This document shows positions 6,460 to 60,580 of a stretch of 64,000 nt of DNA, in pieces (positions within the stretch are counted from its first letter, which is position 1; each line of letters opens with the position of its first letter). The stretch comes from Siphonodentalium dalli (lineage: Eukaryota; Mollusca; Scaphopoda; Gadilida; Siphonodentaliidae). A program made the position numbers and the translations under genes. Below the pieces are notes generated by a model. That model made no database searches, was not told the DNA's origin, and saw only the letters and a program-made list of their open reading frames with translations. Where the stretch lies: positions 20,696,134-20,760,133 of the forward strand of contig CP136065.1 in assembly GCA_032622095.1 (NCBI GenBank), written 5' to 3'.

Positions 6460-7868
6460 GACTGAGTTTTGATTGAGATTTTCGAAAATTCGATAGCTAC
6501 AGGGCAATAACTCTTCTACCAGTACTGTGTAAGACACTAGAAAAAATAATATTGTTTCGCATGGAACGCAATACGCCAAATCTAATTAAAGTTCATCCCC
6601 TTCAAAACGGTTTTCAGAAAAATGACAGTTGTCTTAATATGTCGTCATAAAGCATGAACTTCACAAAGAACAACAGTCTATACTATTCGCCTGCTCTTCG
6701 ATGTACATATAAGGTATTCGATACAGTATGGATCAACGGCTTATTCTTGAAGCTACACCTTCGTGGGTTCCAAGGCAAAATATGGCTCCTCCTAAGAGAG
6801 TTTTTGAGTAATATATCATGTGTAGTCAAACATACACACATTCTGTCTAAGTCAATTGCGATAAAACAAGGCGCAAGGCAAGGGATTATTTTATCCCCTC
6901 TGTTTTATATGTTGTACATAGATGATCTGTTGTATGAACTTGAAGCTTCAAACTTTGGTTTTCGACTTTTATCCTCCAACTGCTCATCTCCAACACAAGC
7001 TGATGATATGACACTGTTTTCCCTCTCAAGTTACGGCTTACAACGTTTATGCGATATGCACATCGTATAGTCAAAAGTGGCGCTTCGTGTATAATCCTAA
7101 CAAATGTAAGGTCATCGTTTTTAACGAAACCAGAGTTGCAGCACAAGTAGGCGCTGGACTGTCGCTGGCAGTACTGTGTCCGAAACAGACGAAATCGCTC
7201 ATTTGGGCATACAATTAAGTAAATAAGTACAGCTTTATCAAAGAATTTGTTGAAGTCATTGTAGACAAAATCAGGTCAACTGTTTTCCTCTTAAGTAATG
7301 CTGGACTTTATGCCGGAGGGATCACTCCGTCGAGTTGCGCTACTATATACAAAACGATGGTGCTGCCAAAAGGATTATATGGATCTGATGGATCAGAATT
7401 TCTGTGTGGCATGTCTGTGTCAGATACTACTTCGCTCGAGAAAATCCATCGATTTTTCTTGAAACGCACTCAAGGGCTGCCTGTGAGAACGAGAACCGAT
7501 ATTGTCCTATAGGTCTCGTGGGCCTTTGCCCAATTTCCTTATTTATAGATCCACGAAAACTCTGTTTGTTTGGTAGCTTTGTCGCATATCGCCTTCCAAA
7601 GTATGCAAGGAGATTTTTGTATCAAGACTTCACATGCATCTTGCTCGGCAATATTGAATGAATTCTTATTTCTCACAACTTGAACCAATATCTTGAGCAA
7701 CTCCCAGTAGCCGGTACGTGTCCAATCCGCCCGGAGTGGAACCGACTAGTCAAAACGGAAGTCAACAGTAAGCGTGATATCGACTGGACGCAAATTGTTC
7801 AAAACGACCCAACACTAACACGCTTCTATCAAATCCAAAGTCACTTAGCCATTGATTATTTCGAGTAA
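6460..7868 (+). mobile_element. Degenerate LINE ORF2: reverse transcriptase plus C-terminal region
   Basis: Conceptual translation in pieces gives the hallmarks of a non-LTR retrotransposon reverse transcriptase. From about 6495 it reads SYRAITLLPVLCKTLEKII and then LQNGFQ. Motif A is KVFDTVW near 6705-6730. Motif B is QGARQGIILSPLF, followed by YIDDL, near 6870-6930. The catalytic pair sits in QADDMTLFS near 6995-7020. Downstream frames give YNPNKCKVIVFNE, HLGIQLSK and LEKIHRFFLKRTQGLP, then a C-terminal region to about 7868. At least four stops or frameshifts separate the pieces, so the copy is dead. No endonuclease domain, ORF1 or 3' tail is visible, and the right side runs straight into satellite DNA. 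The C-terminal motif suggests an I/Nimb-like lineage, but that assignment is tentative. Confidence 0.85.
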
Positions 7869-11737: not shown

Positions 11738-12578
11738 CAGCTTTAAATGGCTGGAGAGATAGGACATAATGGCTTGGGAGATAGGACATAAATGGCTTGG
11801 GAGATAGGACATACATGGCTTGGGGGATAGGACATAAATGGCTTGGGGATATGACATAAATGGCTGGGGGATAGGACATAAATGGCTTGGGAGATAGGAC
11901 ATAAATGGCTTGGGAGATAGGACATAAATGGCTTGGGAAATAGGACATAAATGGCTTGGGGGATATGACATACATGGCTGTGGGGATAGGACATAAATGG
12001 CTGGGGAGATATGACATAAATGGCTGGAGAGATAGGACATAAATGGCTGGAGAGATAGGACATAAATGGCTGGAGAGATAGGACATAAATGGCTGGGGAG
12101 ATAGGACATAAATGGCTGGAGAGATAGGACATAAATGGCTGGTGAGATAGGAAATAAATGGCTGGAGAGATAAGAAATAAATGGCTGGAGCGATAGGACA
12201 TAAATGGTTGGAGAGATAGGACATAAATGGCTGGGAGATAGGACATACATGGCTGGAGAGATAGGACATAAATGACTGGGGAGATGGGACATAAATGGCT
12301 GGGGAGATAGGACATAAATGGCTTGGGATATAGGAAATGAATGGCTGGGAAGATAGGACATAAGTGGCTGGGGAGATAGGACATAAATGTCTGGAGAGAT
12401 AGGACATAAATGGCTTGGGAGATAGGACATAAATGGCTTGGGAGATAGGAAATAAATGGCTGGTGAGATAGGACATACATGGCTGGTGAGATAGGACATA
12501 AATGGCTGTTAAGATAGGACATAAATGGCTGGGGAGATAGGACATAACATAAGTGGCTGGAGAGATTGGACATAAATA
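11738..12578 (-). repeat. 23-bp minisatellite, about 35 units, beside the lectin exon
   Basis: On the plus strand the unit is AGGACATAAATGGCTGGAGA plus GAT, with a CTTGGGAG variant concentrated on the left half. On the minus strand each unit reads TATCTCTCCAG then CCATTTATGTCC, a pyrimidine tract followed by CAG. Because 23 is not divisible by 3 and the unit has almost no stops, three overlapping minus-strand frames of 260-300 residues stay open. All read versions of the same Ser/Pro/Tyr/Cys-rich 23-residue repeat, so they are repeat by-products. The array starts about five bases into the intron after the lectin exon. Confidence 0.9.
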
Positions 12579-14812: not shown

Positions 14813-15158
14813 AGAAATGACGAGTAATCTTGCTCAAAGTAGTTATTTTTTCAAATATTTTATCCAAATTGACAATACACACAGTTATTGTTATATGTTA
14901 ATTAAATGCAGTGATTCTCGGTGGCGAAATCGTATTCGTTAGTTTATCTCCGATTGCTGCGTCCCGAATCAAGAAGTAAATATTTACAATTTGGAATAGT
15001 TCGGACTATGTTTTGTATGGAGTGATACGGTTGACTTGCTTGAGATTCTTGGCGATGTTAGTAGAATGCTACATTCATCCAGTTGGCATAGCGCTCGAAC
15101 ACTAACTTATCAGTTTCACGCACCCGAACAAGTCCGTAACATGTATTTAACCCTTCCA
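14813..15158 (+). mobile_element. Dispersed repeat S, copy 1
   Basis: About 340 bp shared with 60245-60580 over the full length and with 39928-40190 in part, all in the same orientation. Common words include AATTGACAATACACAC, GCGTCCCGAATC, ATGCTACATTC, TATCAGTTTCACGCAC and GAACAAGTCC. No Pol III boxes or poly(A) tail are obvious, so class is unknown. Confidence 0.7.
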
Positions 15159-15191: not shown

Positions 15192-15230
15192 CCCTGTGCC
15201 AATGCATTCTCTTATATATGCGAGTCGACC
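15192..15230 (+). mobile_element. Solo half-palindrome of element E
   Basis: CCCTGTGCCAATGCATTCTC then TTATATATGCGAGTCGACCAT, the outer arm of the palindrome-ended element E, without its partner arm. A TTAACCCTTCC word lies about 40 bp upstream, resembling the TTAACCCTTTACCC terminus that hosts other E copies. Confidence 0.7.
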
Positions 15231-15517
15231 ATGAATGGTGACATATTCATTCCATCGGCATCACACATGCAATACCTGTTACAATTGAGATGTTTATCCC
15301 ACCTCAATTACGTATTAAATAAAGCAAAATATAGACATCTATGCGGGAATCCGATGTACGCGTGACGTGACACCCCACCCCAACATATTCATATTTTCTA
15401 TGCTATGCTTTAATCTCTAAGACATGAGTTCACGTGTTACTGGCGAGATGTGCAATATTTACAAAGTGCTAAGTGTGATATATGCATATAGATAGATAGA
15501 AGAAGAAGGAATATTTA

Positions 15518-18301: not shown

Positions 18302-18910
18302 TTTTATTACATATCTCCGTATCATAGTAAGTTGACTTATACAATCGTACATCTCCGGTACAGAAAATGTGAATTTAATTGAGTTTTAACGGCATTTTAG
18401 GGTTAACGCAACAATCAGACAAGGAGCCCGTCTATCCGCGAATGACCTTGACCCATCCTTAATGATGCGTTTGAAATTAAATTCTGTGCCTCGACAAACA
18501 TATTCTTGAAATGAAACTAATTGAATGAATCATCTCATCGATTGATCGCTTATTGTTACTTTATTGTCGTGATTGAAAAAGTAAAAATAGTAACGGCGAG
18601 AACCAGTCTAACAACACTGAATGAAATAGTTCCGTCGACAGATTGCACTAGTGCGATTCTGAGAATTATCACACACTCGTGCGATCATGCGAATAACGTT
18701 GATAGATATGTAACAAGAAAACCATAGTCAGAAATGGTAACGCCACCAATATCATATTATTAGCCATAAATATAAATTATAATACAATTATTCTATAAAC
18801 TAGCTTTCAAATTTTATGTGGGAAATTTGCATACTTCCATATTTCAAGTTTTCCCGTTTCTCGTGTCATACATTACTTTCTTCAAACTGTCTTCTTTATT
18901 ACGCAAGCTG
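18302..18910. other. Unassigned stretch
   Basis: No gene or clear repeat is seen. A word, AAGAAAACCATAGTCAGAAA, near 18715 recurs with one change near 29371, with about ten more shared bases, suggesting remnants of a dispersed repeat. Confidence 0.35.
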
Positions 18911-18913
18911 ATG

Positions 18914-19480
18914 GGCCCGACTTCGCCCGGGCTGTTTCCCATCTGTTTCCGGCGAGAGGCGCGATTTAACCTTCAATTGACTATTTCGAAAGTCAAGGTC
19001 AGGTCAGGGTCATGATTTGACCCGTCCAAAACACCCCCACCCGGAGAAAAGTACCCCTAGGTATCAAATTTCGTCGAAATCCGTCCGTTTTACCCAACTT
19101 GACCTTTAATGAACAATTTTGAAGGGCAATGTAAGGTCGGAGTCGTGATTTGACCCGTCCAAAACACTCCCCCGACAAAAGTACCCATAGGTATCAAATT
19201 TCGTCGAAATCCATCCGTTTTATCCGACTTGACCTTTGATTGACCACATTGAAGGTCAAGGTCAGGCCGAGGTCACGATTTGACCCGTTAAAAACTCTCC
19301 CCGGACAAAAGTATCCCTAAGTATCAAATTTCGCCGAAATTTGTCCGTTTTACCCAAATTGACCTTGCATTGACAGTTTTAAAGGTCAATGTCAGGTCGG
19401 GGTCACGATTTGACCCGTCCAAAACACTTCCCGGACACAAATACCCATAAGTATCAAATTACGTTGAAATACATGGAAAG
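18914..19480 (-). repeat. About 130-140-bp tandem units of Helitron-like origin
   Basis: Four units contain GACCCGTCCAAAACAC, AAAAGTACCC, TATCAAATTTCGTCGAAAT and CCGTTTTACCCAACTTGACC words. They are the inverse of units inside the elements at 40694-41413 and 45048-45680. The left edge contains CCCGACTTCGCCCGGGC, matching the inverse of the terminal hairpin of those elements, but the CTAG terminus is lost. This is a degenerate, minus-oriented element. Confidence 0.7.
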
Positions 19481-22283: not shown

Positions 22284-22332
22284 CCATGTGCCGATGCATT
22301 CTCTTATAGGTCGCCTCGCATATATAAGAGAA

Positions 22333-25311
22333 CTAGCAGGGTTACCCGGCGTTGCCCAGGTTAAAGTGATGTGAAACCCTCTGTGGATATTTGGTGGGAA
22401 TAGAGAATACTCCTGCTCTCAAAGTGTTACACGTATTCTCATAAATTGTATATCCAAATGGCATCACAAAACATGATTCTTACACATAGAATATAAGTAG
22501 TGGCTCACCTTGTCAGTTCGGAGCGATTATCATTTTGTTTATCGCGTTTAATCCGTCCCACCAATAAAGAAGTATTTATTTATTTACAACTGCGTATACT
22601 TCAGATGTTATAGCATGAAACATGAACATTATAAACATATTAGTTCGAAAAAATAAAAGACGACAATTGTGTTTTACATAAAGATGTATCAATCAATCAA
22701 TCAATCTAGTTTATCATATCTTCATGAATTTAGATACCGATGTTTTAAAGATATGTCCAGGTGCTCCTCTGTTCTGGTGTTATACATGTATACTGGCTAA
22801 TCATTTTCATTTTAAAAGAATTGATGTTATGCACGTATAGCAGCTACATGTGCCGACACAGCAAGAGTTTGAGTTGTTTATGTTAAGTGATGAGTCTGTA
22901 TCGGGCAGATATACCCTTGTCAGATGTCAATATTGGAGGATCCTGAAAAGTAATGTGCTACGGACTGCGTTTTCCTTTATCTCAGAAGTAATCATATTTG
23001 ACTGCACACTGTGACCACTATTTTTGAACAGGCTTGCTCCTCTACATTTCCATATCTCTTGGCAATTGTAACTTTTTTTGTGGAAACTATATTGAATGCG
23101 ACAGACTCAATCGTGTTATAATATATACATGAGCCATTCTAATATGCAATCATCTGACGATTCAAGGTCCCTCAGTTTGAATGAATATATGTATCTATTA
23201 AATAGATTGATATAAATATACTTTTAATGCTATCTTCTATGTATTTGTGTTGCTAAATCAGTATAGGAATGCTCTGATTTCATCCCCATATAAATATGAC
23301 AGTTGATAATATATAATTGTTGAAGTGACTTACTTCGGTCACCATTTGTCGAGATTGTGAAATTGGAATGCCAAACACTCCATAGAACGACATGGAGGTG
23401 GCCTGGGAGATGACTATATATAACTTTGTTGGATATCGGCGAATTGAACAATCTTATAAATGCTAGTGAATCTCCTCTTGTCATCCATGACCCCAAATGT
23501 GATTTAATTCATCATATCATATCATTAGAGAAGAACGTGCATGCAATTTGGTGGAATCAGTGCTAAATATATTTCAATCAACTTTGGTGCAACTCCCCTC
23601 TTGCATGACTGGAACCGCGCCACTTTTGTCATATTTAAACCACGTCTATTAGACTCATGCATGCATTATATAATGGAGATGATTATATATAGGTTTGGTG
23701 GTAATCGGCAACTAAACAAATTCTTATCATAGTTATTACACCCCCCCCCCCCATCTCTCACTCAAACGGCACCAATTTCGCGTCTTTAAATCACACGTTT
23801 ATATTCCTCGTATCACGGAGAAGAATAATATATCAATTTGGTCGAAATCTGTGCTAAAAAATAGCCCCTCCACTGACACCAACAACGTCACTATTGAAAA
23901 TTTTAACCCGCACCATTATCTTACTCGTAAAAAGTTACCCCTATTAGACCGCCTTGGTGCCATCTTGATTGCACCCTTAAAGTTATATATAGAAGTAATA
24001 GAACACAGACAGATATTCGCAAATATTTGATTCATTGTATCATTTGAGAAGAACGTGTATGAGCTTGATGGTAATTGGCACTAAACATATTTTTATAAGT
24101 TTTTGGTGACCCTCCCGTCCCTATTTCGGACTCAAGCGGCGCCACTTTTGATATCATTAAACCACACACTTAGACTCATTATAGAGATGATTATATATAA
24201 AATTTATGAAAATTGGCGAGTATACAATTCGTATCAAATTTAGGGCTACCATTTCATATCTCTCATCCAAAAGGCACCAATTTGGCGCATTTAAACCACA
24301 CGATTAGATTATTCCTATCACGGAGAAGAATATGTATCAATCATGTGGAAATCGGCGCTAAACATATTGTTTATCAATGTTTGTGTCCCTCTCACCCTCT
24401 AGGCACCCCTGACTCGAATGGCCCCACTTTTGACATCTTTAAACCACACAATTATACTCCTGATATCATGGAGATTATTATTTGTAAGTTTGGTGCTAAT
24501 CCGCGACTAAACAAATTTTTTTCAAATTATGTGCACACCCCACCCACCCCATCTCTCACCAAAGCAGCACCAATATGACGTCTTTAAAATCACACGATTA
24601 GATTCCTCATATTATGGATAAGAATGTGTATCAATTTGGTGGAAATTGGCGCTAAAAATATTGTATACATTTTGGTGCCCCTCTCCCTTTCAGTGCACCC
24701 CTGACTCGAATGACGACACGTTTGACAGCTTTAAGTCACGGTATTATATACCTCATACCATGGGGATATATTTGCATCAGTTTCGTGGCAATCGGCGACT
24801 TAACCAATTCTTATCATATTTAGTACCCACCCCCCCCCCCCCCCAAAATCTATCATCCCAACGACACCAATTTTGCGTTTTTAAATCACACAATAAGATT
24901 CCTTGTATCATGGAGAAGATCTCAGAAGAATGTGCATCAATTGGTGGAATTCGGCGCTAAAATTATTTTTGATCAATTTTGGTGCCCCTCTCCCCTTTCG
25001 GGCATCCCTGACGCGAACGGCGCGAATTTTGGCATATTTAAACCACACCATTAGATTCCTCATATTATGGGGATGATTATATATAAGTTTGGTGGCAATC
25101 GGCTACAACTTTTTTTGTTCTGCCCCTCCCCTTGTCTGCCCCTGACAACAACGGCGTCACTTTAGAAAATTCTAACCTTCACCATTATCTTTCTCGTAAA
25201 ACATTGCTCCTAGTAGACCCCTTTGGTGCCATCTAGATGGTCCCCTGTGAATTTCTATAGAACACAGACAGACAGACAGACAGACAGACATTCGCAAATA
25301 TAGATATAAGA
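22333..25311 (-). mobile_element. Non-autonomous Helitron, copy A
   Basis: Read on the minus strand it starts TCTTATATCTATATTTGCG, runs through a (TCTG)n tract and ends CAACGCCGGGTAACCCTGCTAG with a short hairpin just upstream of CTAG. It lies exactly between A and T of element E. TC start, 3' hairpin, CTRR end and A^T insertion without target duplication are the diagnostic features of Helitrons. The interior holds imperfect repeats of about 300 bp. No Rep/helicase frame is present, so mobility would need another element. A full-length inverted relative is at 36841-39927. Confidence 0.9.
23500..25240 (-). repeat. Internal ~300-bp dimeric repeats of Helitron A
   Basis: Each unit has two related halves. 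One carries AAATCGGCGCTAAA-like and GGTGCCCCTCTCCC-like words. The other carries TTGGTGGCAATCGGC-like and CACACGATTAGATTCCTC-like words. Units near 23541, 23830, 24070, 24340, 24620 and 24940 are visible with variable decay. Short plus-strand open frames (for example 24213-24578, 24646-24960) share an FGxNxRLNxFxS / PDSNxxTFxxFK pattern only because they sit in repeated DNA. Confidence 0.75.
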
Positions 25312-25769
25312 TGCATTGGCCTAACAATTTTTTATCATTTTTTTTAAATAAATGTTTCTTACAATTTTTAGGACATAAAATAAAAAAACCCAAATTGTGT
25401 TACTGGACATCTTTCGTATGATGAACGACGATAATTTTTACGAACAGCTATTTGTAGTTGTAATTTTTTTTTGGATGACCAAAACAAGCCCACACATATA
25501 AAGAAACATATAGAAGAGTGTCGTCTGCTCATGTTTGTCTGGGGCTCTGTATGGGTGAAATTATAAAATTGTTAAGGAATACAAGAAAAAATTATTAAAA
25601 TTGTAAAAAATTGTTAGGCCAATGCATTCTCTTATATATGCGAGGCGACCTATGGTCGACTCTCATATATAAGAGAATGCATTGGCACAGGGTAAACAAA
25701 AATCCCGACTTACGACTGGATGTGATATGGATTTATTATTTAAAACCCAATATATATTAATTAGATAAC

Positions 25770-26396: not shown

Positions 26397-26536
26397 TTCA
26401 AACTCAATTCTGGATACCGAGAGGAACAAGTATAACAAGTATAACAAGTATAACCAGTGTTTTATTTATTATCCGTTTTATCACAAATACAGCCATCCCT
26501 TCACAAGCTAGGTTATTGTCCAAGATGCACCATTAA

Positions 26537-26983
26537 CCCTTTACCCAACAGAGCGGCCCTGTGCCAATGCATTCTCTTATATATGCGAGTCGACCATAGG
26601 TCGCCTCGCATATATAAGAGAATGCATTGGCCTAACAATTTTTTACAATTTTAATAATTTGTTCTTGTATTCTTTAACAATTTGTATAATTTCACCCATA
26701 CAGAGCCCCAGACAAACATGAGCAGACGACACTCTTCTATATACTTTTATGTATGTGTGGGGCTCCCTGCAGGGTTATGGATGTTTTTTATTTTATGTCC
26801 TAAAAATTGTAAGAAACATTTATTTAAAAAAAATGATAAAATATTGTTAGGCCAATGCATTCTCTTATATATGCGAGGCGACCTATGGTCGACTCGCATA
26901 TATAAGAGAATGCATTGGCACAGGGTATTTTAGGCTGTTGAAGCTTTATTTGGCCGGTTTTGGCCGGTTTGTTGGGTAAAGGG
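26537..26983. mobile_element. TTAA MITE family P, copy 1 (contains element E)
   Basis: TTAA at 26533-26536 and 26984-26987 flank inverted ends CCCTTTACCCAACA and TGTTGGGTAAAGGG. The CCC start and TTAA duplication match the known habit of piggyBac-type elements. An intact element E occupies 26557-26925. No transposase is present. Confidence 0.85.
26557..26925. mobile_element. Palindrome-ended element E, copy 2
   Basis: CCCTGTG...CACAGGG ends. Each end carries a 69-bp near-perfect palindrome (26563-26631 and 26851-26919). The 220-bp middle is AT-rich with GAGCCCCAGACAAACATGAG, CAGACGACACTCTTCTATAT and GGACATAAAATAAA-type words in common with copies 1 and 3. Noncoding. Confidence 0.85.
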
Positions 26984-26987
26984 TTAA

Positions 26988-27261: not shown

Positions 27262-27722
27262 ATGTGATCCGCCATATCAAATCCAGTCGTAAGTCGGGAA
27301 TTTTTTACCCTGTGCCAATGCATTCTCTTATATATGCGAGTCGACCATAGGTCGCCTCGCATATATAAGAGAATGCATTGGCCTAACAATTTTTTATCAT
27401 TTTTTTTAAATAAATGTTTCTTACAATTTTTAGGACATAAAATAAAAAACATCCATTAACCTGCCGAGAGCCCCACACATATATAAAAGCATATAGAAGA
27501 GTGTCGTCTGCTCATGTTTGTCTGGGGCTCTGTATGGGTGAAATTATAAAATTGTTAGAGAATACAAGAAAAAATTATTAAAATTGTAAAAAATTGTTAG
27601 GCCAATGCATTCTCTTATATATGCGAGGCGACCTATGGTCGACTCGCATATATAAGAGAATGCATTGGCACAGCGTAAAAAAAAATCCCGACTTACGACT
27701 GGATTTGATATGGCGGGTCACA
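27262..27722. mobile_element. Foldback flanks carrying element E, copy 3
   Basis: Outside E copy 3 (27308-27675) the flanks are themselves inverted: GATCCGCCATATCAAATCCA and GTCGTAAGTCGGGA on the left match the inverse on the right. E copy 1 has the same right flank (ATCCCGACTTACGACTGGAT at about 25705). So E either sits in a symmetrical host element or these flanks are part of a longer E version. Confidence 0.75.
27308..27675. mobile_element. Palindrome-ended element E, copy 3
   Basis: Palindromes at 27314-27382 and 27601-27669, each about 69 bp, enclose a middle closely matching copy 1 and the inverse of copy 2. The right terminus has one change (CACAGCG). Confidence 0.85.
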
Positions 27723-31379: not shown

Positions 31380-31387
31380 GACCGCCT

Positions 31388-31757
31388 GTTATTATAGAAC
31401 CATATAAGTTAGCATGTTATTATAGAACCATATAAGTTAGCATGTTATTATAGAACCATATAAGTTAGCATGTTATTATAGAACCATATAAGTTAGCATG
31501 TTATTATAGAACCATATAAGTTAGCATGTTATTATAGAACCATATAAGTTAGCATGTTATTATAGAACCATATAAGTTAGCATGTTATTATAGAACCATA
31601 TAAGTTAGCATGTTTATTATAGAACCATATAAGTTAGCATGTTATTATAGAACCATATAAGTTAGCATGTTATTATAGAACCATATAAGTTAGCATGTTA
31701 TTATAGAACCATATAAGTTAGCATGTTTATTATAGAACCATATAAGTTAGCATGTTT
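31388..31757. repeat. 28-bp minisatellite, 13 nearly identical units
   Basis: The unit is GTTATTATAGAACCATATAA plus GTTAGCAT. Two or three units carry one extra T. Near identity suggests recent expansion. There are no spacers, so it is not CRISPR-like. Confidence 0.95.
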
Positions 31758-34026: not shown

Positions 34027-34265
34027 TATTTATTACATGATCCTACCTTTATTCCATTCATTAAACCCATTCTATAAATTGTGATATTAAACGTTCGTTT
34101 GAAAAGTTTTGTCATTAATTATAAGCCATTAAATACACCAAAAAGTCTTTATTTATCTGGGACTATTTCTTTACGCGGGAAAACTACGCATAAATACGTG
34201 AAACGTCACCGTATGCCTTATATAAGCCGATGTTAGTTTCGCGTCCCATTTGTTTATCTAGCGGT
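34027..34265 (+). repeat. Dispersed repeat U, copy 1
   Basis: TATTTATTACATGATCCTAC, TTATTCCATTCA, ATATTAAACGTTCGTTT and GGGACTATTTCTT words recur in the same order at 36290-36650. The second copy has about 125 extra bases after CGTTCGTTT. Confidence 0.75.
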
Positions 34266-34329: not shown

Positions 34330-36160
34330 TATGGCGTCCAATGTGCTTTGGTGTATTTCCAAAACTGGGTGGATAAACTGAACACCAGAAAGTCGTTGAT
34401 AGAGTGTATGCATGTGCGTGTATGTCGTATATGCGAGAAATACACAACGAAAACACAATTCACAGTTTGGATCGATAGGCCTTGCCCTGTGTATTTTGAT
34501 GTTGCGTTTTTTGACAATCGGTCTTTCGTATCCTTTCTATAACACAATTATCGTGTTTCTTGCAGCACGAAGTTACCGTGTGATCGCCACGGAAGCGTTT
34601 TCATTCAGAGTATGGATATATTGCCGCCGATGCAGTGTATTCTCGGATAGAAAACAAGTACGCCGATTCCGAAAGCAGAAACTAAGTCGCGAGGGTCACC
34701 CCTGGTTGAGTCTGGGATATTTGGCACTCGGGACTTGGCTAGAGGGTTTTCGTTGGGGTTATCTCCACCTTGGAATTTCCAACTGTACCCCACCCCATTG
34801 AACCGCACCAAACTCACAAGTTTGCGTAATTTAATTTGCACACCCCCCTCCCGGTGCTTTGATTTTCCCCAAATGTTCCCTCACAGACTACTAGATAGTA
34901 GCCTATTATAAATGGACCAGCAGTCTTGTGGCCACTGGCCATGCAAGGGGATGAAAATGATGGTTTGGCCCAGTATGGGATTAAAAAATCCTAACATCTA
35001 GTGGTATAACGCCAGACAAATTTACACCCCGATTTATTTTTTCTTAAATTAATTAGCAAGTAACTACTGGCAAGGCACAGAACACACGAGTCGGCCGATG
35101 GTTAGACCCGATGTGAGAACATTTTGAAAATCTGAACATGAACTTTCGACAATCCTAGCATCTACCCTTGTCTCAAGCTTTACAATTCGGGGAAATTTTC
35201 AAAATGACACTCACTCTTAGTTTTGAAAATTGCCAACTGATGGGCATTTCAGTCCAGAATTTTGCAAATAAAAGGGAGATATGCAAATGTTGGTCTAAAA
35301 AACAAGAAATTCGTCACTAAGAAATTGTTGGAAAATCAAGCTACGAGAACAATTTCAACTTAATTTTGGTGTGAATTTTCCAATTAACGTTGCATTAGGT
35401 TTGACTACAGTTTGGGGGTAAGACCCCTTCCTAACCACCCCTGCCGACACGTCCCTGCTTGGCACTCCATACTAAGAGCGCGGTCTTGCATTCACTGAAG
35501 ACGAGAAATCATCGATACTAAATTACGGGGAGGAGTCAGGGGACTACATCCCCACCCTGCCGGGGAGGGATAGCCACCCCCGTCAGTGAGGTCTGCAATG
35601 GTCAACCCGGTAGCTAAAGCCCGCTCCCTGCCAGGGAATCGTATATAGCCCCTGCGTCGGGAATATCCTGGCGCAACCCCTGTTTGAAATCATATAGAAA
35701 TTTTAAAGGAGAAGACCACATATGGAGCAGAACTCGGGGAAATGAGCTCTCATAACCACAAAACTACACTAAAGAATCCCAATAAATCCAAATCGGATGA
35801 AGTCGCATAGAGTATATATGGTATCGTTCTGTTGGCCTCTCTATATCATATAAATACTTTTTCTAAAAACCCTTAAATCAACTCGACGTGCGATTTCCCT
35901 GCGCTCCTGTTGCACAAATAATAGTATAAAAAACGTTCAAACAGTAAATATGACCAGACAAGACATAGAAACCGCTAATCTCATTACCAATCTAACAACA
36001 CCAGTCGAACATGATTACCTTTCAAAGCAATAACACCGGGCATCAGGTTACGGACATCCACAGGCACACACACCATGGATAAATAAACGGTCAAAAGAAC
36101 GGCGTTTTTTGTACGTTTATATCTAGCATATACCCATGGTTATATATAAACGGGCTACGA
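34330..36160. other. Unassigned, probably unique stretch
   Basis: The largest repeat-free part of the window. A 129-residue plus frame at 34412-34801 and others lack recognised motifs. GC-richer text at 35500-35690 has several GGGA/TCCC words but no clear gene. Confidence 0.35.
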
Positions 36161-36163
36161 CAC

Positions 36164-36302
36164 CATGTAATAAATAAAATCAGTTTATAGCGGAATTTAC
36201 AAAACTCACACAAAGGCTCGGTCCAGACCTAATTTACTGGACTCGTTTTGTAAATTTCGCTATAAACTGCGGACTCGTTGTAGATCCTCTATTTATTACA
36301 TG
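36164..36302. repeat. Hairpin element H, copy 1
   Basis: Outer CATGTAATAAATA pairs with TATTTATTACATG. Inner TTTATAGCGGAATTTACAAA pairs with TTTGTAAATTTCGCTATAAA. The centre contains GGCTCGGTCCAGACCTAATT. Sits at the left edge of repeat U copy 2. Confidence 0.75.
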
Positions 36303-36650
36303 ATCCTACCCTTATTCCATTCAATAAACCCGTTCTATAAATTGTTATATTAAACGTTCGTTTAATAACAGGAAATAGTTCCAGGTGACCTTCGACTTCC
36401 GGTTTGTCGTCTGTTTACATTCTCTATGCTACGTCTCAAAATACTATGGCTTCCAATATTGTTCCAACAAACTATAAAGAATTAAGAGTTTGAAAAGTTA
36501 TGTCATTAAATATACGCCATTAAATACGCCAACGAGTCTTATTTATATGGGACTATTTCTTCACGCGGGAAAACATCGCATAGTTACGTGAAACGCCATC
36601 GCATGCCTTATTGAAGCCGGTTTTAGTTCGCGTCCATTTGTTGATGTACG
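36290..36650 (+). repeat. Dispersed repeat U, copy 2
   Basis: Counterpart of 34027-34265, with a 125-bp insertion at about 36365-36490. The upstream boundary is the H hairpin, which is absent from copy 1. Confidence 0.7.
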
Positions 36651-36673
36651 TATGTTTTGTCGAGGTTTTGGAT

Positions 36674-36840
36674 CATGTAATTAATATAATCTACAGCTCG
36701 TCCACAGTTTATATTGGAATTTACAAAACTCGTCCAGTAAATTAGGTCTGGAGACCTCGCCAAAGGCTCGGTCCAGACCTAATTTACTAGACTCGTTTTG
36801 TTTTTCCGCTATAAACTGGGGACTCGTTGTAGATCCTCTA
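36674..36840. repeat. Hairpin element H, copy 2, interrupted by Helitron B
   Basis: Arms of about 65 bp (CAGTTTAT, GGAATTTACAAAACTCGTCC, AGTAAATTAGGTCTGG and their inverses) around an AGACCTCGCCAAAGGCTCGG centre. The element breaks at GATCCTCTA (36840), where copy 1 continues TTTATTACATG. The break is the A side of a Helitron A^T insertion. Confidence 0.75.
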
Positions 36841-36860
36841 TCTATATCTATATTTGCGAA

Positions 36861-36899
<39 letters not shown>

Positions 36900-39800
36900 G
36901 TTCTATAGAAATTCACAGGGAACCATCTAGATGATGCCAAAGGGGTCTACTAAGAGTAGCTTTTTACGAGAAAGATAATGGTCGGGGTTAGAATTTTCTA
37001 AAGTGACGCCGTTGTTGTCAGGGGCAGAAAGGGGGGAGGGGCAGAAAAATAAATTGTCGCCGATTGCCACCAAACTTATATATAATAATCCCCATGATAT
37101 GAGGAATCTAATGGTGTGGTTTAAATATGGCAAAAGTCGCGCCGTTCGCGTCAGGGGTGCCCGGAAGGGGGATGGGCAGATTTTTTTTCTGTCGCCGATT
37201 TCCACCAAACTTATATATAATCATCCCCATGATATGAAAAAACCAACGGTGTGGTTTAAAAGTGGCGTCGTTCGAGTCAGGGATGCACGGAAGGGGAGAG
37301 GGGCACCAAAATTGAAAAACTAATTTTAGCGCCGATCTCCACCAAATTGATATATATTCTTCTTCATTATACAAGGAATCAAATTGTGCGCTTTAACAAT
37401 GCCAAATTGTTGTCTTTTGGTTGAGAGATTGGGAGGGTGTGGGCTCTAAATTTGATAATAATTGGTTTAGTCGCCGATTGCCACCACACTTCTACAAAAT
37501 CATCCCCATGGTATGAGGAGTCTAATGGTGTTGCTTATATCTGTCAAATGTGGCCTCATTCGAGTCAGGGTTGCATTGAAAGGGACAGGGGCACCAAAAT
37601 TGATGCACAATTGTTTTGCGCCAATTTCCACCAAATTGATACACGTTCTTATCCAAGATACGAGGAATCTAATCGTGTGATTTAAGGACGCCACAGTGGT
37701 GCTGTTTGTTTGAGAGATGGGGTGTGGATTGGCACCAAATTTGATTAAAAAAAATTGTTTAGTCGCCGATTATCACCAAACTTATAAACAATCATCTCCA
37801 TGATATCAGGAGTATAATCGTGTGGTTTAAGGGTGTCATAAGTTGGGCCATTCGAGTCAGTGGTGTATAGAGATGAGATGGACACAACAAATTATATCTA
37901 TATGTTTAGTGCCAATTTCCACCAGATTGATACATATTTTTCTCTGTGGTACGAGGAATTTTATCGTGTCGTTTAGATACACCAAATTTGTGCCCTATTG
38001 GTGAGAGATATGGGGACCTTAAATTTGATACGAATTTGTATACTCGCCAATTTTCATCAATTTCATATATATGCATCTCTAATCGCTAAGTCTTAGTGTG
38101 TGCAGCTTGAGACTGAAATAGGGACGGGAGGGTCACCAAGACTGATGCAAAATATTTTTAGTACTAATTACCATCAAATTCAGACACGTTCTTCTCAAAT
38201 GATACAAAAAATCAAATCGTGCTGTCTGTCTGTCTGTCTTTCTGTCTGTCTGTGTGCGTTCTATATATAACTTCACGCGGTACAATCGAGATGGCACCAA
38301 GGCGTTCTAAGAGGGGTAACTGTTTACAAGGAAGATAACGGTTTGGGTAAAAAAATTCTAAAATGACGCTGTTGGTGTCAGGGGAAGAAAAGGGGGAGGT
38401 CGGCAAAATTAAAAATATATCGTGAAATAGTTTTGTCGCCGATTTCCACCAAACGAATACATAATCACCTTCGCAATATTGCGTTGTTCGAGTCAACGTT
38501 GCATCAACAATTGATTTAATAAACTATTTTTAGCCCAGATTTCCACCAAATTGATATATTATTCTTCTCCATGATACGAGGAATATCATCGTGTTATTTA
38601 AAGACGTCAAATTGCTGTCGGTTGGGTGAGAGATATGGGCCATAACTATTCTCAGAATTTGTTTAGTTGCTGATTACCACCAAACATATATATAATCATC
38701 GCCAGTATATCATGCATCTATGAGTCTAATGGGAGTGGTTTAAATATGTCCAAAGAGGCAAACGCTGGTACAAATTTATTTGGCACCAATTTCCACCGAA
38801 TTCATACACGTTTTTCTCTAATGATATACCATGAATTAAATAACATTTGATGTCGTTTGCGTCCCGGATGGCGAGCGGATATACACTATCATTGATAAGA
38901 TTGCTATTCGCCTTTATATACAGTCACCCAGGCCATCTCCATATCATTTTAAGTAGTTTTGGACGTTCACATTTAAGTCAATTGAACAATTATATATTCT
39001 TAACTGTCATATTTATATGGGAATAGCAGTCAGGGCATTCACAAAATGAGCTAGCAAAAAGAGATACATAGAAGAAGCATTTAACGTATATTTATCATTC
39101 TATTGAAGAGATACATATATTCGTGCAAACTGAGAGACCCCGAACCGTCAGAGGATTGCATATATATTATAACAAAATTGAGTCTGTTCCATTCAATACA
39201 GTTTCCACAAAAAAGTTACAATTTGTCAAGAGATATGGAATGCCTGCTCTAAAATAGTGGTCACAGTGTGTAGTCAAATATAGTTTCTTCTGATATATAA
39301 GAAAATGCAGTTAGTAGCATAAGACTTTTCTGCACATCTGACAAGGGTTTTATAACAGACTCTTCGACTGACATAAACAACTCAAAATCTCGCTCTGTAA
39401 CTGGCACATGTAGCTAAGATTTATGCGCATCAACATTTCGTTTAAACTGATAATATTTAGCCAATATATAGCACCATGAACAGAGGAGCACCTGGAAATT
39501 TCTTTGAAACATCTGTATCTTCACGGAGATAGCCAGGTGTCCTCGAGAACTTAGTCCCACCCACTACATTGATTGATACATCTCAATATTCAAAACCCAA
39601 TTATCATCTTTTATCAAACTAATGTGTTTATGATGTTCATGTATCATATTATAACGTCTAATGTATACGCAGTTGTAAATAAATACATACTTCATTATTG
39701 TTGGAGCGGATTAATCGCGACAAACAGAATGACAATTGACAAGGTGAGCCACTACTTATATCCCATGACTGTAATAATCATGTTTTATGATGCTATTTGA

Positions 39801-39927
39801 ATCTACAATTTATGAGAAACCGTCTAACACTTTTAAGCAAGAGCATTCTCTATCCCCAACAAATATCCACAGCATACAGAGGTTTTCTCATCGCATTAAC
39901 CTGGGCAACGCCGGGTAACCCTGCTAG
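36841..39927 (+). mobile_element. Non-autonomous Helitron, copy B
   Basis: Starts TCTATATCTATATTTGCG after an A, then a (TCTG)n tract, and ends GGGCAACGCCGGGTAACCCT followed by GCTAG and T. It is homologous to copy A along its length in opposite orientation, including the ~300-bp dimeric repeats and the 3' part. The right flank is repeat S rather than the rest of hairpin H, so this copy either formed by recombination or lost flanking DNA. No replicase. Confidence 0.85.
38221..38340 (+). repeat. Second 5'-like module inside Helitron B
   Basis: A (TGTC)n tract, TTCTATATATAACTTCACG, ATCGAGATGGCACCAAGGCG and CAAGGAAGATAACGG repeat the module found at 36858-36985. Copy A has the same internal second module near 23930-24020. 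The duplication therefore predates both insertions. Confidence 0.7.
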
Positions 39928-40309: not shown

Positions 40310-40314
<5 letters not shown>

Positions 40315-40693
40315 CCTATATATTTTGATACAATCTGTCTCTGTTTGTCTGTCTGTCTGTCTGTCCTTTATACAAATCTACGATTCTCGACCGATCGGGA
40401 CGAAACTTGGTACGTGTGTGTAGTTTGACCAGGCGGTCGTCGTTGTCGTATTGGCGAGCCCGTGCGACGCCCGTGCAGCGCATGCGCAGACGAGATCTCG
40501 GAAACGGGTGGAGCTATCGACTTGAAATTTCGTATGTGAATGTATCTTGCCCCGGATACGAATTTTATCGGGTCGCCGAGCCCGTGCGACGCAAGCTTCG
40601 CGCATGCGCAGACTAGATCTCGGAAACGGGTGGAGCTATCGACTTGAAATTTGGTTTTTGAATAGCCCGGACAACGTCGGGCTCATCGGCTAG
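40310..40693 (+). mobile_element. Short Helitron-like element HN1
   Basis: TCTCTCCTATATATTTTG start, (TGTC)n at 40340-40365, an internal duplication (GATCTCGGAAACGGGTGGAG twice) and an end with hairpin AGCCCGGACAACGTCGGGCT followed by CATCGGCTAG. A 5' part of the same family is at 50811-51058. Open frames on both strands are by-products. Confidence 0.8.
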
Positions 40694-43786: not shown

Positions 43787-45047
43787 TCTACTATATATTT
43801 TGAGAACTACGTATATCCATATATATATCCTTTATATAATCGAAAACGGCTGGACCGATTGAGACCAAACTTCCTGTCTAAGGTTTAAAAAAACTAGGGA
43901 CAGTGCATAGCACAGCTTCTGAGAACGTACGAGCACTCCACATCCCAGTCACCGTAATTGGCACTGTGGGGTTAATCGCGTTGATAGTTAAAGAGCGTTT
44001 GTATCCGCAGTGTCGTTGATAAATAGCGTCTATATACAACGAGTATAAATACGGCTCCATTGACCGTCTCGAGACGAAATTTCGTATTTAGGGGTTCCAA
44101 GGAACGGGCACTGCAATGGTTAATAGTCTCTTTGGTTTGTGTGAGCCGATGCAGGATGGACAACTCTATATTCACAAACGTATTCAAGTCAACGATATCG
44201 AAAGTAATCGTAAAATACGCACACATATGTCTTAACGTGTAGGCTATTTAAGAGCGTTTATCTACTTGAGTGAAAATACGGCATTTGCCGGCTCAGTCCC
44301 AAAATATAGCATTTACAATTTCTGATATATACATTTTTGTTACAGCTGATGTTCTTAGTTTATTTTGGATACATTTATATTTTTATGCTATTTTCCACAC
44401 CTCACTAAGTGCTAAGTCATGTAGAGTTAGGTCGCGGGTAAAAGTTCGCTAAATATGATCTGGAATCTGACCCAAATATAAAGGGGAGCGAATCGGTGCC
44501 TAGGTCTGGAATCTGGACTCGGGTAAAAGTGGATCAAATCCATTTACCTCAGATGGCTTCCAGAATGGCCTGAATTTTGGTAAAAGCTGTGTAACAGAAT
44601 TTAGCTGTTTCTTGGCTATAAGTTTGGTTTATTTTCATTGAAATTGGTTACTAATTAATGAGCGTGTGTCTATGAGGCGTCGCTATTAAAAAAATTATCT
44701 ACTTGAGTGAAAATAAAATCGGGTAAAACTGGCGGATTTCGACGGACGAAATTTGATACCGTGCGACGACTCCTTCACCCCTTCTTACCTACTTAGGGCT
44801 TCCTAGGAACGGGGGACATTTTCATCGGGTCAGTTTTTCCGCCCGAGGTGATCTTCACCAAAAAATAAATGAAGAAAAAAAAAAATAATTAAAAATTTAA
44901 TTAAAAAAATTTATTTCAAAAGCCAGTAAATTAAAAAGGCACAATTAACTCGTTGAAAAACATAAAATTAAATTAAAAAATTTATTTAAAAAAATAAAAA
45001 TTGTCATGTGTCTGACGATTGCCGCCAGTGGCGGGCTAACCTGCTAG
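43787..45047 (+). mobile_element. Short Helitron-like element HN4
   Basis: Begins TCTACTATATATTTTGAG immediately after the CTAG of HN3. It has the same subterminal words and ends with the same CCGCC-AGT-GGCGG hairpin and CTAG at 45044-45047. The interior 44060-44880 includes unrelated sequence (for example 44100-44450), possibly captured DNA. Confidence 0.75.
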
Positions 45048-45680
45048 TATAATATATATTTTCGGACTTCTGTCTGTCTGTTTGTCTGTTAGCTATGGCC
45101 TGGAAAACTGTCGGACGGATTGAGCCCAAACTTCCTATCTAAGGGTAAAATTCCAGATGGAATGTCATCGCACCGCTTCTGAGAACGTCAGAGCACTCAT
45201 TCTCCACCCCCCCCCCGCCACCACAATGGGTAGTTCATGGGTTAATCGCGTGATAGTTAAAGAGCGTTCGTATCCGCAGTGTCGTTGATAAAGAGCGTGT
45301 ATGTGTCCAGACATGAGCGTGTTGTGTCTGTGTACAGACAAGATGGTGTTGTGTGATTCTGTGTTCGTACTTAGGGGTTCCTGGGAATGGGGGAGAATTT
45401 CATCGGGTCAGTTTTTCCACCCATGGTGACCTTCACCTTGAAACGGGTACCCACTACCCACAAATGATCTAATATATATTTTGGGACTTCTGTCTGTTTG
45501 TTTGTCTGTTTTCTATGGCCGGGAAAAACTGCTGGACGGATTTCGACGAAATTTGATACCTACGGGTAATTTTGTCCGGGGAGTGTTTTGGACGGGTCAA
45601 ATCGTGACTCCGACCTGACGTTGACCTTCAAAATGGTCAATTCAAGGTCAAAGCCCGGACGAAGTCGGGTCACCTGCTAG
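45048..45680 (+). mobile_element. Two further Helitron-like segments HN5 and HN6
   Basis: HN5 starts TATAATATATATTTTCGGAC after CTAG. A second start-like TAATATATATTTTGGGAC near 45471 marks HN6. The chain ends with hairpin CCCGGACGAAGTCGGG, TCACCTG and CTAG (45677-45680), followed by T. HN5 lacks an evident 3' hairpin, so it may be truncated by HN6. Confidence 0.7.
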
Positions 45681-50810: not shown

Positions 50811-51058
50811 TCTCATATATATTTTGAAGACCTCTGTCTGTCTGTCTGTTTGTCTGTCATTTATACAAATCTACGATTCTCGACCGATCGGGACGAAACT
50901 TGGTACGTGTGTGTAGTTTGACCAGGCGGTGGACGTTGTCGTTTTGGCGAGCCCGTGCTACGCCCGTGCGGCGCCCGTGCAGCGCATGCGCAGACGAGAT
51001 CTCGGAAACGGGTGGAGCTATCGACTTGAAATTTGCTATGTGAATGTATCTTGCCCGG
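50811..51058 (+). mobile_element. Helitron-like element HN7, 3' truncated
   Basis: TCTCATATATATTTTGAAG start, (CTGT)n, then ATTTATACAAATCTACGATT, TCTCGACCGATCGGGACGAA and ACGGGTGGAGCTATCGACTT, as in HN1. It stops at CTTGCCCGGG without a CTAG end. Confidence 0.75.
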
Positions 51059-51235
51059 GTTATCACAACAAACGTACATAGTATGCAGGTGTAAAACTTT
51101 ATTCAACAATATATCTATGTGACATATTCAGTAATCAATGGTTCCATATATGAGTGTTCTGTAATAACATACCCGAGATATCATAGCTTTATAAAATTTA
51201 TCACTCACCGCCATTTATAAAAATCAATTACACAC

Positions 51236-51573: not shown

Positions 51574-51697
51574 TTGTGTTAGCTCACTATGAAACGCTTC
51601 CACATATAAATACGACTGTTGACAAGATATAGGTGTGTAAGTGACTTCGGTTAACATATTTCGAGGTTTTGAAATTTTAACGCCAAAATCTCATTAA

Positions 51698-52060
51698 CCC
51701 TTTACCCAACAAAACGGCCAAAAACGCCCAAATAAACCTTCAACAGCCTAAAATATCATCGGTCTGTCTCAATAACACCACACAAATATTGATATCATTG
51801 GAACCGGTTCATTGACCACATTGTGATGGTTACAGTTATGCCCTGTGCCAATGCATTCTCTTATATATGCGAGTCGACCATATAATTTTTTCTTACATTT
51901 TTTAACAATTTTTATAATATTTTTCTACATTCTTTGACAATTTTATCATTTTAAATATGTGTTAAGCCAATGCATTCTCTTATATATGCGAGGCGACCTA
52001 TGGTCGACTCGCATATATAAGAGAATGCATTGGCACAGGGCCGTTCTGTTGGGTAAAGGG
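51698..52060. mobile_element. TTAA MITE family P, copy 2 (contains element E)
   Basis: TTAA at 51694-51697 and 52061-52064. Inverted ends CCCTTTACCCAACAAAACGG and CCGTTCTGTTGGGTAAAGGG. Element E copy 4 fills 51841-52040. Confidence 0.85.
51841..52040. mobile_element. Palindrome-ended element E, copy 4 (deleted form)
   Basis: The left end has only one palindrome arm (CCCTGTGCCAATGCATTCTC to GTCGACCAT). The right palindrome at about 51967-52034 is complete. The middle is shorter and AT-rich. Internal deletion derivative. Confidence 0.8.
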
Positions 52061-52559
52061 TTAAAAAACATGTTCGACGTCTCTTTTGTTTTACTAATAT
52101 CCGAGATGAAGTATTGGAATAGCTCATTAGTCTAATAGCTTGCTGATATACATTTGGAAAAATTAAACAAAACCAATGTTGACATTGCCAGGGGAGATAT
52201 TCTGCCGCCATTTTCAAGAGGATTATGACGTAGATTCACGGCACTGGAGACGTCCAGATAAATCTGATATCCCGATATGTGATATATCTCACTGACTGCA
52301 AACGACGTTTTGAAACAATGTGCCCGAAAAAATAGAAACCTTTATTTTTACCATTGAACCAAATATCTTCCGGTATCGAAATGCACATAGTAGTGTCGTG
52401 GTGTTAAATCGGAGGGGGCACATTTAAACTTACAGGGTTCATAGTGACTTGCCAATGAAACGTGAAACACGTTGCTCAGCATAACCATCTTCATGATGAC
52501 GTGCATATGTTTTACACTGTCTATATGTCTAGGTGTTCATCGGTTGAATGTAACTGATG

Positions 52560-59704: not shown

Positions 59705-60093
59705 CAATAAAGACGTTGTATAATGCTTGGACCGTCGTTCGATACAATATAATGATTGGACAGTCGTTCGATACAATATAATGATTGGACAGTCGTTCGA
59801 TACAATATAATGCTTGAACCGTCGTTCGATACAATATAATGATTGGACAGTCGTTCGATACAATATAATGATTGGACCGTCGTTCGATACAATATAATGA
59901 TTGAACCGTCGTTCGATACTATATAATGCTTGAACCGTCGTTCGATACAATATAATGATTGGACAGTCGTTCGATACAATACAATGAGTGGACCGTCGTT
60001 CGATACAATATAATGATTGGACAGTCGTTCGATACAATATAATGAGTGGACCGTCGTTCGATACAATATAATGATTGGACCGTCGTTGACACT
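59705..60093 (-). repeat. 29-bp minisatellite, about 13 units
   Basis: Unit GTCGTTCGATACAATATAAT plus GATTGGACC, with ACC/ACA and GATT/GCTT/GAGT variants. 29 is not a multiple of 3 and the unit lacks minus-strand stops, so three overlapping minus frames (up to 165 residues) stay open as by-products. Starts directly after MITE M copy 2. Confidence 0.95.
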
Positions 60094-60244: not shown

Positions 60245-60580
60245 AAGAAATGGAGAATAATCTTGCTAAAAGTTATTTTTACAAATAATATATCGAAATT
60301 GACAATACACACCGTCATTCGTATATATTAATTGAATGCAGTGACTCTCGAAGTTGAAACAGTTTTCTTTAGTTTATCGCAGATAGTGCGTCCCGAATCT
60401 AGAAGTAGATATTTATATTTGAGCATAGATCAGACAATGTTTTCTATGGTGGTTTTGCTTGATATTTTCAGCGATGTTACTAAAATGCTACATTCTTCCA
60501 CTTGGCACAGCGCCTGCATAGTAACTTATCAGTTTCACGCACACGAACAAGTCCATAATATGTCTTTAAATATTTACCAG
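60245..60580 (+). mobile_element. Dispersed repeat S, copy 3
   Basis: Full-length match to 14813-15158 in the same orientation. A short end-like word (GAACAAGTTCGTAATATG) also occurs at about 63094. Confidence 0.7.

Follow-up and report, generated by a model that had tools for sequence, protein, structure and literature searches.

Canonical Helitrons, as defined in the cited sections of the literature, begin with a 5' TC, end with a 3' CTRR, carry a palindrome of 16-20 nt located ~11 nt from the 3' end, and insert between A and T without duplicating the target (PMC4067079, PMC8969392, PMC4778049). For Helraiser, the section cited here describes 10 sequenced insertions, in which TC was joined to A and CTAG to T (PMC4778049). 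In oysters, the corresponding sections describe tandem Helitron copies that are cut short at the 3' end, as well as elements with central satellite arrays (PMC7492417, PMC8268682), and elements of this layout are there assigned to the Helentron/HINE type (PMC7492417). Here, we analyze a 64-kb stretch of DNA, referred to throughout as the window, in which the minus-strand segment 22333-25311 (hereafter, H1) is almost certainly a non-autonomous canonical Helitron of the Helitron1 type, inserted at A^T in one arm of a palindromic end of another repeat, E, with the target neither duplicated nor deleted.

The insertion and its empty site

H1 spans 2979 bp in the arrangement A^TC...CTAG^T. Read on the minus strand, it opens with TCTTATATCTATATTTGCGAATGTCTG and closes with GGCAACGCCGGGTAACCCTGCTAG, is preceded by A and followed by T, and in its coordinates, length, terminal TC and CTAG, and neighboring bases agrees with the description in the earlier note. 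The flanks belong to an interrupted copy of E, of which the left part, a palindromic end, occupies 22284-22332 and the right part 25312-25692 (both on the plus strand). When 22306-22332 is joined to 25312-25387, the resulting 103 bp are found without a single mismatch at 27347-27449 (plus strand), which is an intact empty site, and match an E copy in the opposite orientation, 26784-26886, with 99.0% identity over 103 bp (BLAST), bearing out the proposal that the joined flanks restore a continuous E sequence. The exact empty site identifies H1 as an insertion at A^T without target-site duplication. The H1 segment is absent from the intact E copies at 26557-26925 and 27308-27675 and from the short E copy at 51841-52040; that is, none of the three other E copies examined natively holds the 3-kb segment. 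The ends of H1, its empty site, and H2, a further copy described below that shares these ends but has different flanks, were all observed directly.

Exactly two placements of H1 restore the empty site, 22332-25310 and 22333-25311, which are one base apart, an ambiguity inherent in A^T insertions whenever the element starts with T. The latter placement was chosen because it conforms to the A^TC/CTAG^T convention. The earlier note had held that the edges are fixed to the base by evidence inside the window, and the 103-bp join and H2 uphold this, save that the convention is needed to choose between the two placements. The BLAST match to E runs 8 bases into H1 (from 25304) because the 5'-terminal TCTTATAT of H1 closely resembles TCTCTTATATATG in E. 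This likeness of the first 8 bases to the target is due to chance, and the 5' edge is settled despite the overrun by the exact join and by the second copy.

With up to three mismatches allowed, the 18-base 3' end and the 24-base 5' end each have two matches in the window, both in H1 and H2, against a mean of 0.00 in shuffled sequences (n = 100 in each case), and chance is therefore excluded. The counts from a fuzzy regular-expression census of the ends, which was faulty, were discounted: for the 3' ends, it missed the end of H2 and yielded 3 matches against a Markov mean of 7.95, and for the 5' ends, it yielded 32 matches against a Markov mean of 30.45; of its output, only the sequence of the decayed end near 18904 is used below. 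A text search of the literature found the literal 17-base 3'-end string in no paper, and we claim no absence beyond that search. The 3'-end pattern had no match in collections of viral and genome contigs, patterns for the E palindrome arm, the repeat unit, and the 5' region had none among the viral contigs, and blastn gave no match in phages; as such collections would hardly include animal genomes, these negatives carry no weight for the family.

The interrupted E copy is unlike the others in that 17 bp are missing from its left palindrome and an extra stretch is present in its middle. In BLAST, it matches intact E in one piece of 103 bp (100% identity) and another of 202 bp (97.0%), which is a better guide than the E-to-E identity of 326/351 because the latter takes in the misaligned extra stretch. 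Each end of the copies at 26557-26925, 27308-27675, and 51841-52040 is a near-perfect palindrome of ~69 bp, and the two ends mirror each other; one such end (75 nt) has a folding energy of -36.1 kcal/mol versus a shuffle mean of -6.9 (z = -14.3). The E copies within 26533-26987 and 51694-52064 are framed by TTAA-CCCTTTACCCAACA...TGTTGGGTAAAGGG-TTAA, and these TTAA-framed units look like miniature elements (MITEs) of what we take to be the piggyBac type. The copy at 27308-27675 has a different outer inverted repeat, with TA at both edges. Half of an E palindrome stands alone at 15192-15232, sharing 41 identical bp with E and having no second arm adjoining.

A second copy, the shared ends, and the 3' palindrome

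A BLAST search with H1 against the 64-kb window identified a second full-length copy of the family, H2, at 36841-39927 (plus strand; 3087 bp, A^TC...CTAG^T), 11.5 kb away from H1, so that two full-length copies with the same ends in differing flanks are found within the window. The two elements share 82.7% identity over 2761 aligned columns (K2P distance of 0.197; 544 gapped columns). Clear similarity ends at TC and CTAG, outside of which only the target A and T are common; homology extending into the flanks, which would have spoken against the boundaries proposed in the earlier note, is absent in H2, the sole other full-length copy in the window. TC...CTAG termini, that is, a 5' TC and a 3' CTRR, are present in H1, H2, and a 213-bp mini-Helitron of another family at 45468-45680 (plus strand; A^TC...CTAG^T), which has a palindrome of its own, located 10 nt from the 3' end. 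The neighbors of both H2 and the mini-Helitron are likewise A and T, and no empty site for the mini-Helitron was found in the window.

Conservation between H1 and H2 is uneven. Of 298 aligned positions in the first 300 bases, 270 are identical (90.6%); the value for the last window of the comparison is 88.4%, and those for the eight windows in between range from 74% to 84%; over the final 32 bases, there is no difference at all. With the ends more conserved than the interior, it is probably the ends that the Rep/Hel protein recognizes. The close match of the interrupted E copy to intact E (100% and 97.0%), set against the 17% difference between H1 and H2, makes it more likely that H1 and H2 represent two old sub-lineages than that they are copies from one recent burst; from this one comparison, we also infer that H1 inserted into E after E had spread.

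Near its 3' end, H1 contains an imperfect palindrome of 18 nt, ACCTGGGCAACGCCGGGT, at 22344-22361 (minus strand), 11 nt before the terminus, and the palindrome of H2 at 39899-39916 (plus strand) is identical. The stem in H1 is 6 bp long and includes one T.G pair. The 3' hairpin noted earlier is therefore correctly placed as an imperfect palindrome but weak by energy, with z-scores no better than those of shuffled sequences (-0.89 and -0.03 for 50 and 40 nt of H1, respectively, and 0.08 for H2). Other stem sequences, folded with RNA energy parameters, occur 10-13 nt before the terminus of the mini-Helitron (45680), of a lone end at 45047, and of a decayed end at 18904-18932, which speaks in favor of the hairpin of H1 and H2. 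That hairpin is probably real. In the cited section on Helraiser, the hairpin is described as acting as a terminator, and without it transposition fell to 8.8% but not to zero (PMC4778049), a result that bears on the weak palindrome of H1.

Several other features of the window resemble parts of Helitrons. The core of the mini-Helitron resembles 130-bp tandem units at 18969-19470, which adjoin the decayed Helitron-like 3' end at 18904-18932. At 45040-45100, a 5' start resembling that of a Helitron, with a GTCT run, comes immediately after a Helitron-like 3' end (...TGCTAG, 45047), and this could be arranged head to tail with the element at 45468. Two copies of another sequence, at 40312-40558 and 50811-51062, also have a Helitron-like 5' start and a GTCT run, and these are 88.0% identical over 258 columns. 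The window further contains long tandem arrays at 11744-12577, 31387-31756, and 59719-60087, with units of 23, 28, and 29 bp, a reverse-transcriptase fragment at 6651-7070, and many dispersed repeats. These last two features give it a eukaryotic look, and the style of its repeats may hint at a mollusc; Rfam and tRNA scans of the window gave no matches.

Satellite-like interior and coding content

The interior of H1, all of it described here on the minus strand, has several parts. Just inside the 5' end lies a (GTCT)n microsatellite (25264-25290), followed by a first satellite-like block at 24025-25103 (element positions 209-1287), a partial internal copy of the element's own 5' region at 23752-24026 (69.9% identity over 302 columns, E-value of 6e-32), a second satellite-like block at 23406-23852 (element positions 1460-1906), and a unique tail of ~1 kb at 22362-23405, of which a 93-bp stretch occurs a second time at 51599-51687 (76%). 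Units were counted with a repeat-unit profile, a full unit being one that covers at least 90 profile positions. By this count, the first block holds 7 units and 1 part unit with a pitch of ~146 bp (start-to-start distances of 139-159 bp, with four of the six steps at 146-148 bp), and the second block holds 3 units and 1 part unit. The order in H2 is similar: a first block of 8 units and then a part unit precede the same internal 5' region, after which come two units and two part units. Each 5' region itself contains a unit-like stretch (111-195 and 1382-1445 in H1, 123-211 and 1484-1578 in H2), which was left out of the unit counts. These stretches enter into the comparisons of 5' regions: the match between the 5' region of H1 and the internal 5' region of H2 (73.4% over 237, E-value of 1e-34) partly includes the unit-like part, and the 69.9% match within H1 likewise takes in some of it.

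The internal copy begins without the terminal TC and ~10 nt in H1, and from the GTCT run on in H2. A clean head-to-tail Helitron with its own TC was considered for this region and rejected, the profile placing the TC in question in the preceding satellite unit; what we claim is only a partial internal duplication of the 5' region. This duplication probably predates the split between H1 and H2, because both copies have it.

Stop-free frames of at least 40 aa number 29 in H1 and 38 in H2, the longest being 122 and 114 aa, respectively. Of these 67 frames, the five longest from H1 and the five longest from H2 were compared with Pfam, and none of the 10 had a match at the cut-off; two sub-threshold matches among them scored 14.7 and 14 bits versus cut-offs of 27 and 32. 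No Rep/Hel gene was found among the 16 window frames scanned, the scan of the wider window having covered 6 of the 14 frames of at least 130 aa (of the other eight, five lie in tandem-repeat arrays); that none turned up in the 10 frames of H1 and H2 accords with their being non-autonomous. As no gene was seen in H1, the element would have to draw on Rep/Hel from elsewhere.

By analogy with published Helitrons, the element would be mobilized by a Rep/Hel protein whose gene lies at another site in the genome; this protein would nick at the 5' TC, peel off or copy one strand, stop at the 3' palindrome and CTAG, and join the product into an AT dinucleotide. In this reading, the interior of H1, namely, the microsatellite, the ~146-bp satellite-like units, and the partial internal 5' copy, is cargo. 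The internal 5' copy is the sort of product one would anticipate if rolling-circle copying, or recombination, fused a truncated copy with its successor.

Alternative readings and comparison with known systems

Several points count against the classification of H1 as a canonical Helitron: its palindrome folds no better than shuffles do, the 16 frames scanned revealed no Rep/Hel gene, the two full-length copies both lie in one window, the boundary is ambiguous by one base, the 5' end resembles the target by chance, and H2 has no single empty site in the window. H1 might instead be a Helentron or Helitron2-type element (HINE), akin to the oyster elements with a microsatellite and central repeats, and its layout, in which the 5' end is followed by a microsatellite with 4-nt units, satellite-like repeats in the center, and a 3' palindrome, indeed matches that of Cg_HINE in the cited part of PMC7492417. 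HINEs, however, are characterized in the sections cited here by subterminal inverted repeats of 11-15 bp and by TT or T-rich sites (PMC7492417, PMC4067079), whereas, when the first 60 bases of the element are compared with the last 100, no exact inverted match is longer than 7 bp, a length equaled or exceeded in 83 (H1) and 73 (H2) of 500 shuffles (exact repeats only), and all three intact elements combine an A^T site with TC and CTAG ends, none of them at TT. Given that neither subterminal inverted repeats nor a TT site were found, H1 is best described as a canonical type with a HINE-like interior, and its assignment to the HINEs appears very improbable. Still more remote is the explanation that no insertion took place, the segment having been lost from the other E copies or brought in by a rearrangement or an assembly join. 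The structural variability of the E family, exemplified by the shortened palindrome and extra middle stretch of the interrupted copy, lends this explanation some color, but it would have to account both for H2, a copy of the 3-kb unit with the same termini in a different setting 11.5 kb away, and for joined flanks that equal an intact E copy at 103/103 bp.

The flanks of H2 pose a separate question, which has no bearing on H1. The left and right flanks derive from different repeats, L and R, respectively, and the window yielded no joined empty site for H2. From its first base on, the right flank matches R copies at 14894-15143 (81.5%) and 60324-60562 (72.4%; both on the plus strand), which continue upstream of the point where the flank is cut at A|T; because these two copies are also alike upstream (82.1% over 84 bp), R is cut at this point, at A|T. 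On the left, an L copy at 36211-36291 (plus strand) matches the 81 bp adjoining H2 with 92.6% identity, and the match stops at A. An inverted L copy at 36670-36752 has 15 bp more in common with 36222-36306 (84.7% over 85), which suggests that L, too, was cut at the H2 edge. The copy at 34027-34100, by comparison, shares only sequence beyond the L/H2 point and begins two bases before that point, suggesting that L has a natural edge at a TA.

These observations could reflect recombination between a Helitron insertion in L and another in R, or a single insertion at a pre-existing L-R junction. Recombination is favored by the R flank being cut exactly at A|T where two other R copies continue, and by the L flank stopping exactly at A where the inverted copy goes on; it is disfavored by 34027-34100, which suggests that L may simply end at a TA, by the possibility that L adjoined R before H2 arrived, and by the missing left half of R, which was found nowhere else in the window. 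Taken together, we judge the odds of recombination to be slightly short of even. A stronger version, with the locus plainly recombined and both repeats cut at A|T, was set aside, being weakened by the start of 34027-34100 two bases before the point. Near the left edge of H2, foldback-like repeats composed of L and its inverted copy (36160-36306 and 36655-36840) are interleaved with a segment of which another copy lies at 34027-34260. In a more far-reaching scenario, a canonical A^T/CTAG lineage would have taken on the HINE-like layout of microsatellite plus satellite, and would copy its own 5' region within itself through incomplete rolling-circle rounds, spread satellite units, and serve as an exchange site between chromosomal repeats, as at the H2 locus. 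We regard this scenario as rather unlikely.

With H1 read as a canonical non-autonomous Helitron, its likeness to the elements described in the cited sections of PMC4067079 and, for Helraiser, PMC4778049 lies in the TC, the CTRR, a probable palindrome ~11 nt from the 3' end, the A^T site without duplication, and the lack of terminal inverted repeats, with the CTAG of H1 being as in Helibat1; H1 differs in its short, imperfect palindrome (a 6-bp stem with one T.G) and in having no known autonomous partner in the window. The Lep1 Helitrons of insects, as described in the main text of PMC4038834, are likewise short and non-autonomous, with a 5' TC, precise A/T insertion, and CTRR at the far end, but have a consensus of 134 bp plus acquired sequence, unlike H1, and the word 'tandem' is absent from that main text. 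Helitron ends are hard to fix because no target duplication is left; in this case, the ends of the family can be annotated with confidence, since the 64 kb contain an exact empty site together with a second full-length copy and a smaller relative.

The nearest published kind, on the evidence of the sections cited here, is that of the oyster Helitron/Helentron elements with central satellite repeats. Cg_HINE and Helitron-N_Cgi (PMC7492417, PMC8268682, PMC11136912) share with H1 the order of terminal segment, short microsatellite, satellite-like block, and terminal segment, and the internal 5' copy and satellite block of H1 fit the oyster descriptions (PMC7492417, PMC8268682). The oyster microsatellite is described as built chiefly from 4-nt units such as GTCY, and that of H1 is (GTCT)n. 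By contrast, the subterminal inverted repeats and TT preference of Cg_HINE were not found in H1, the commonest oyster units are given as 164-166 bp (CgiSat01) versus ~146 bp in H1, and the H1 array, unlike those described for the oyster elements, is split by a partial second 5' region. H1 provides a tangible instance of a rolling-circle element that carries satellite-like repeats, as reported in oysters; the family of H1 belongs to a known kind, and its value lies mainly in its clean boundaries.
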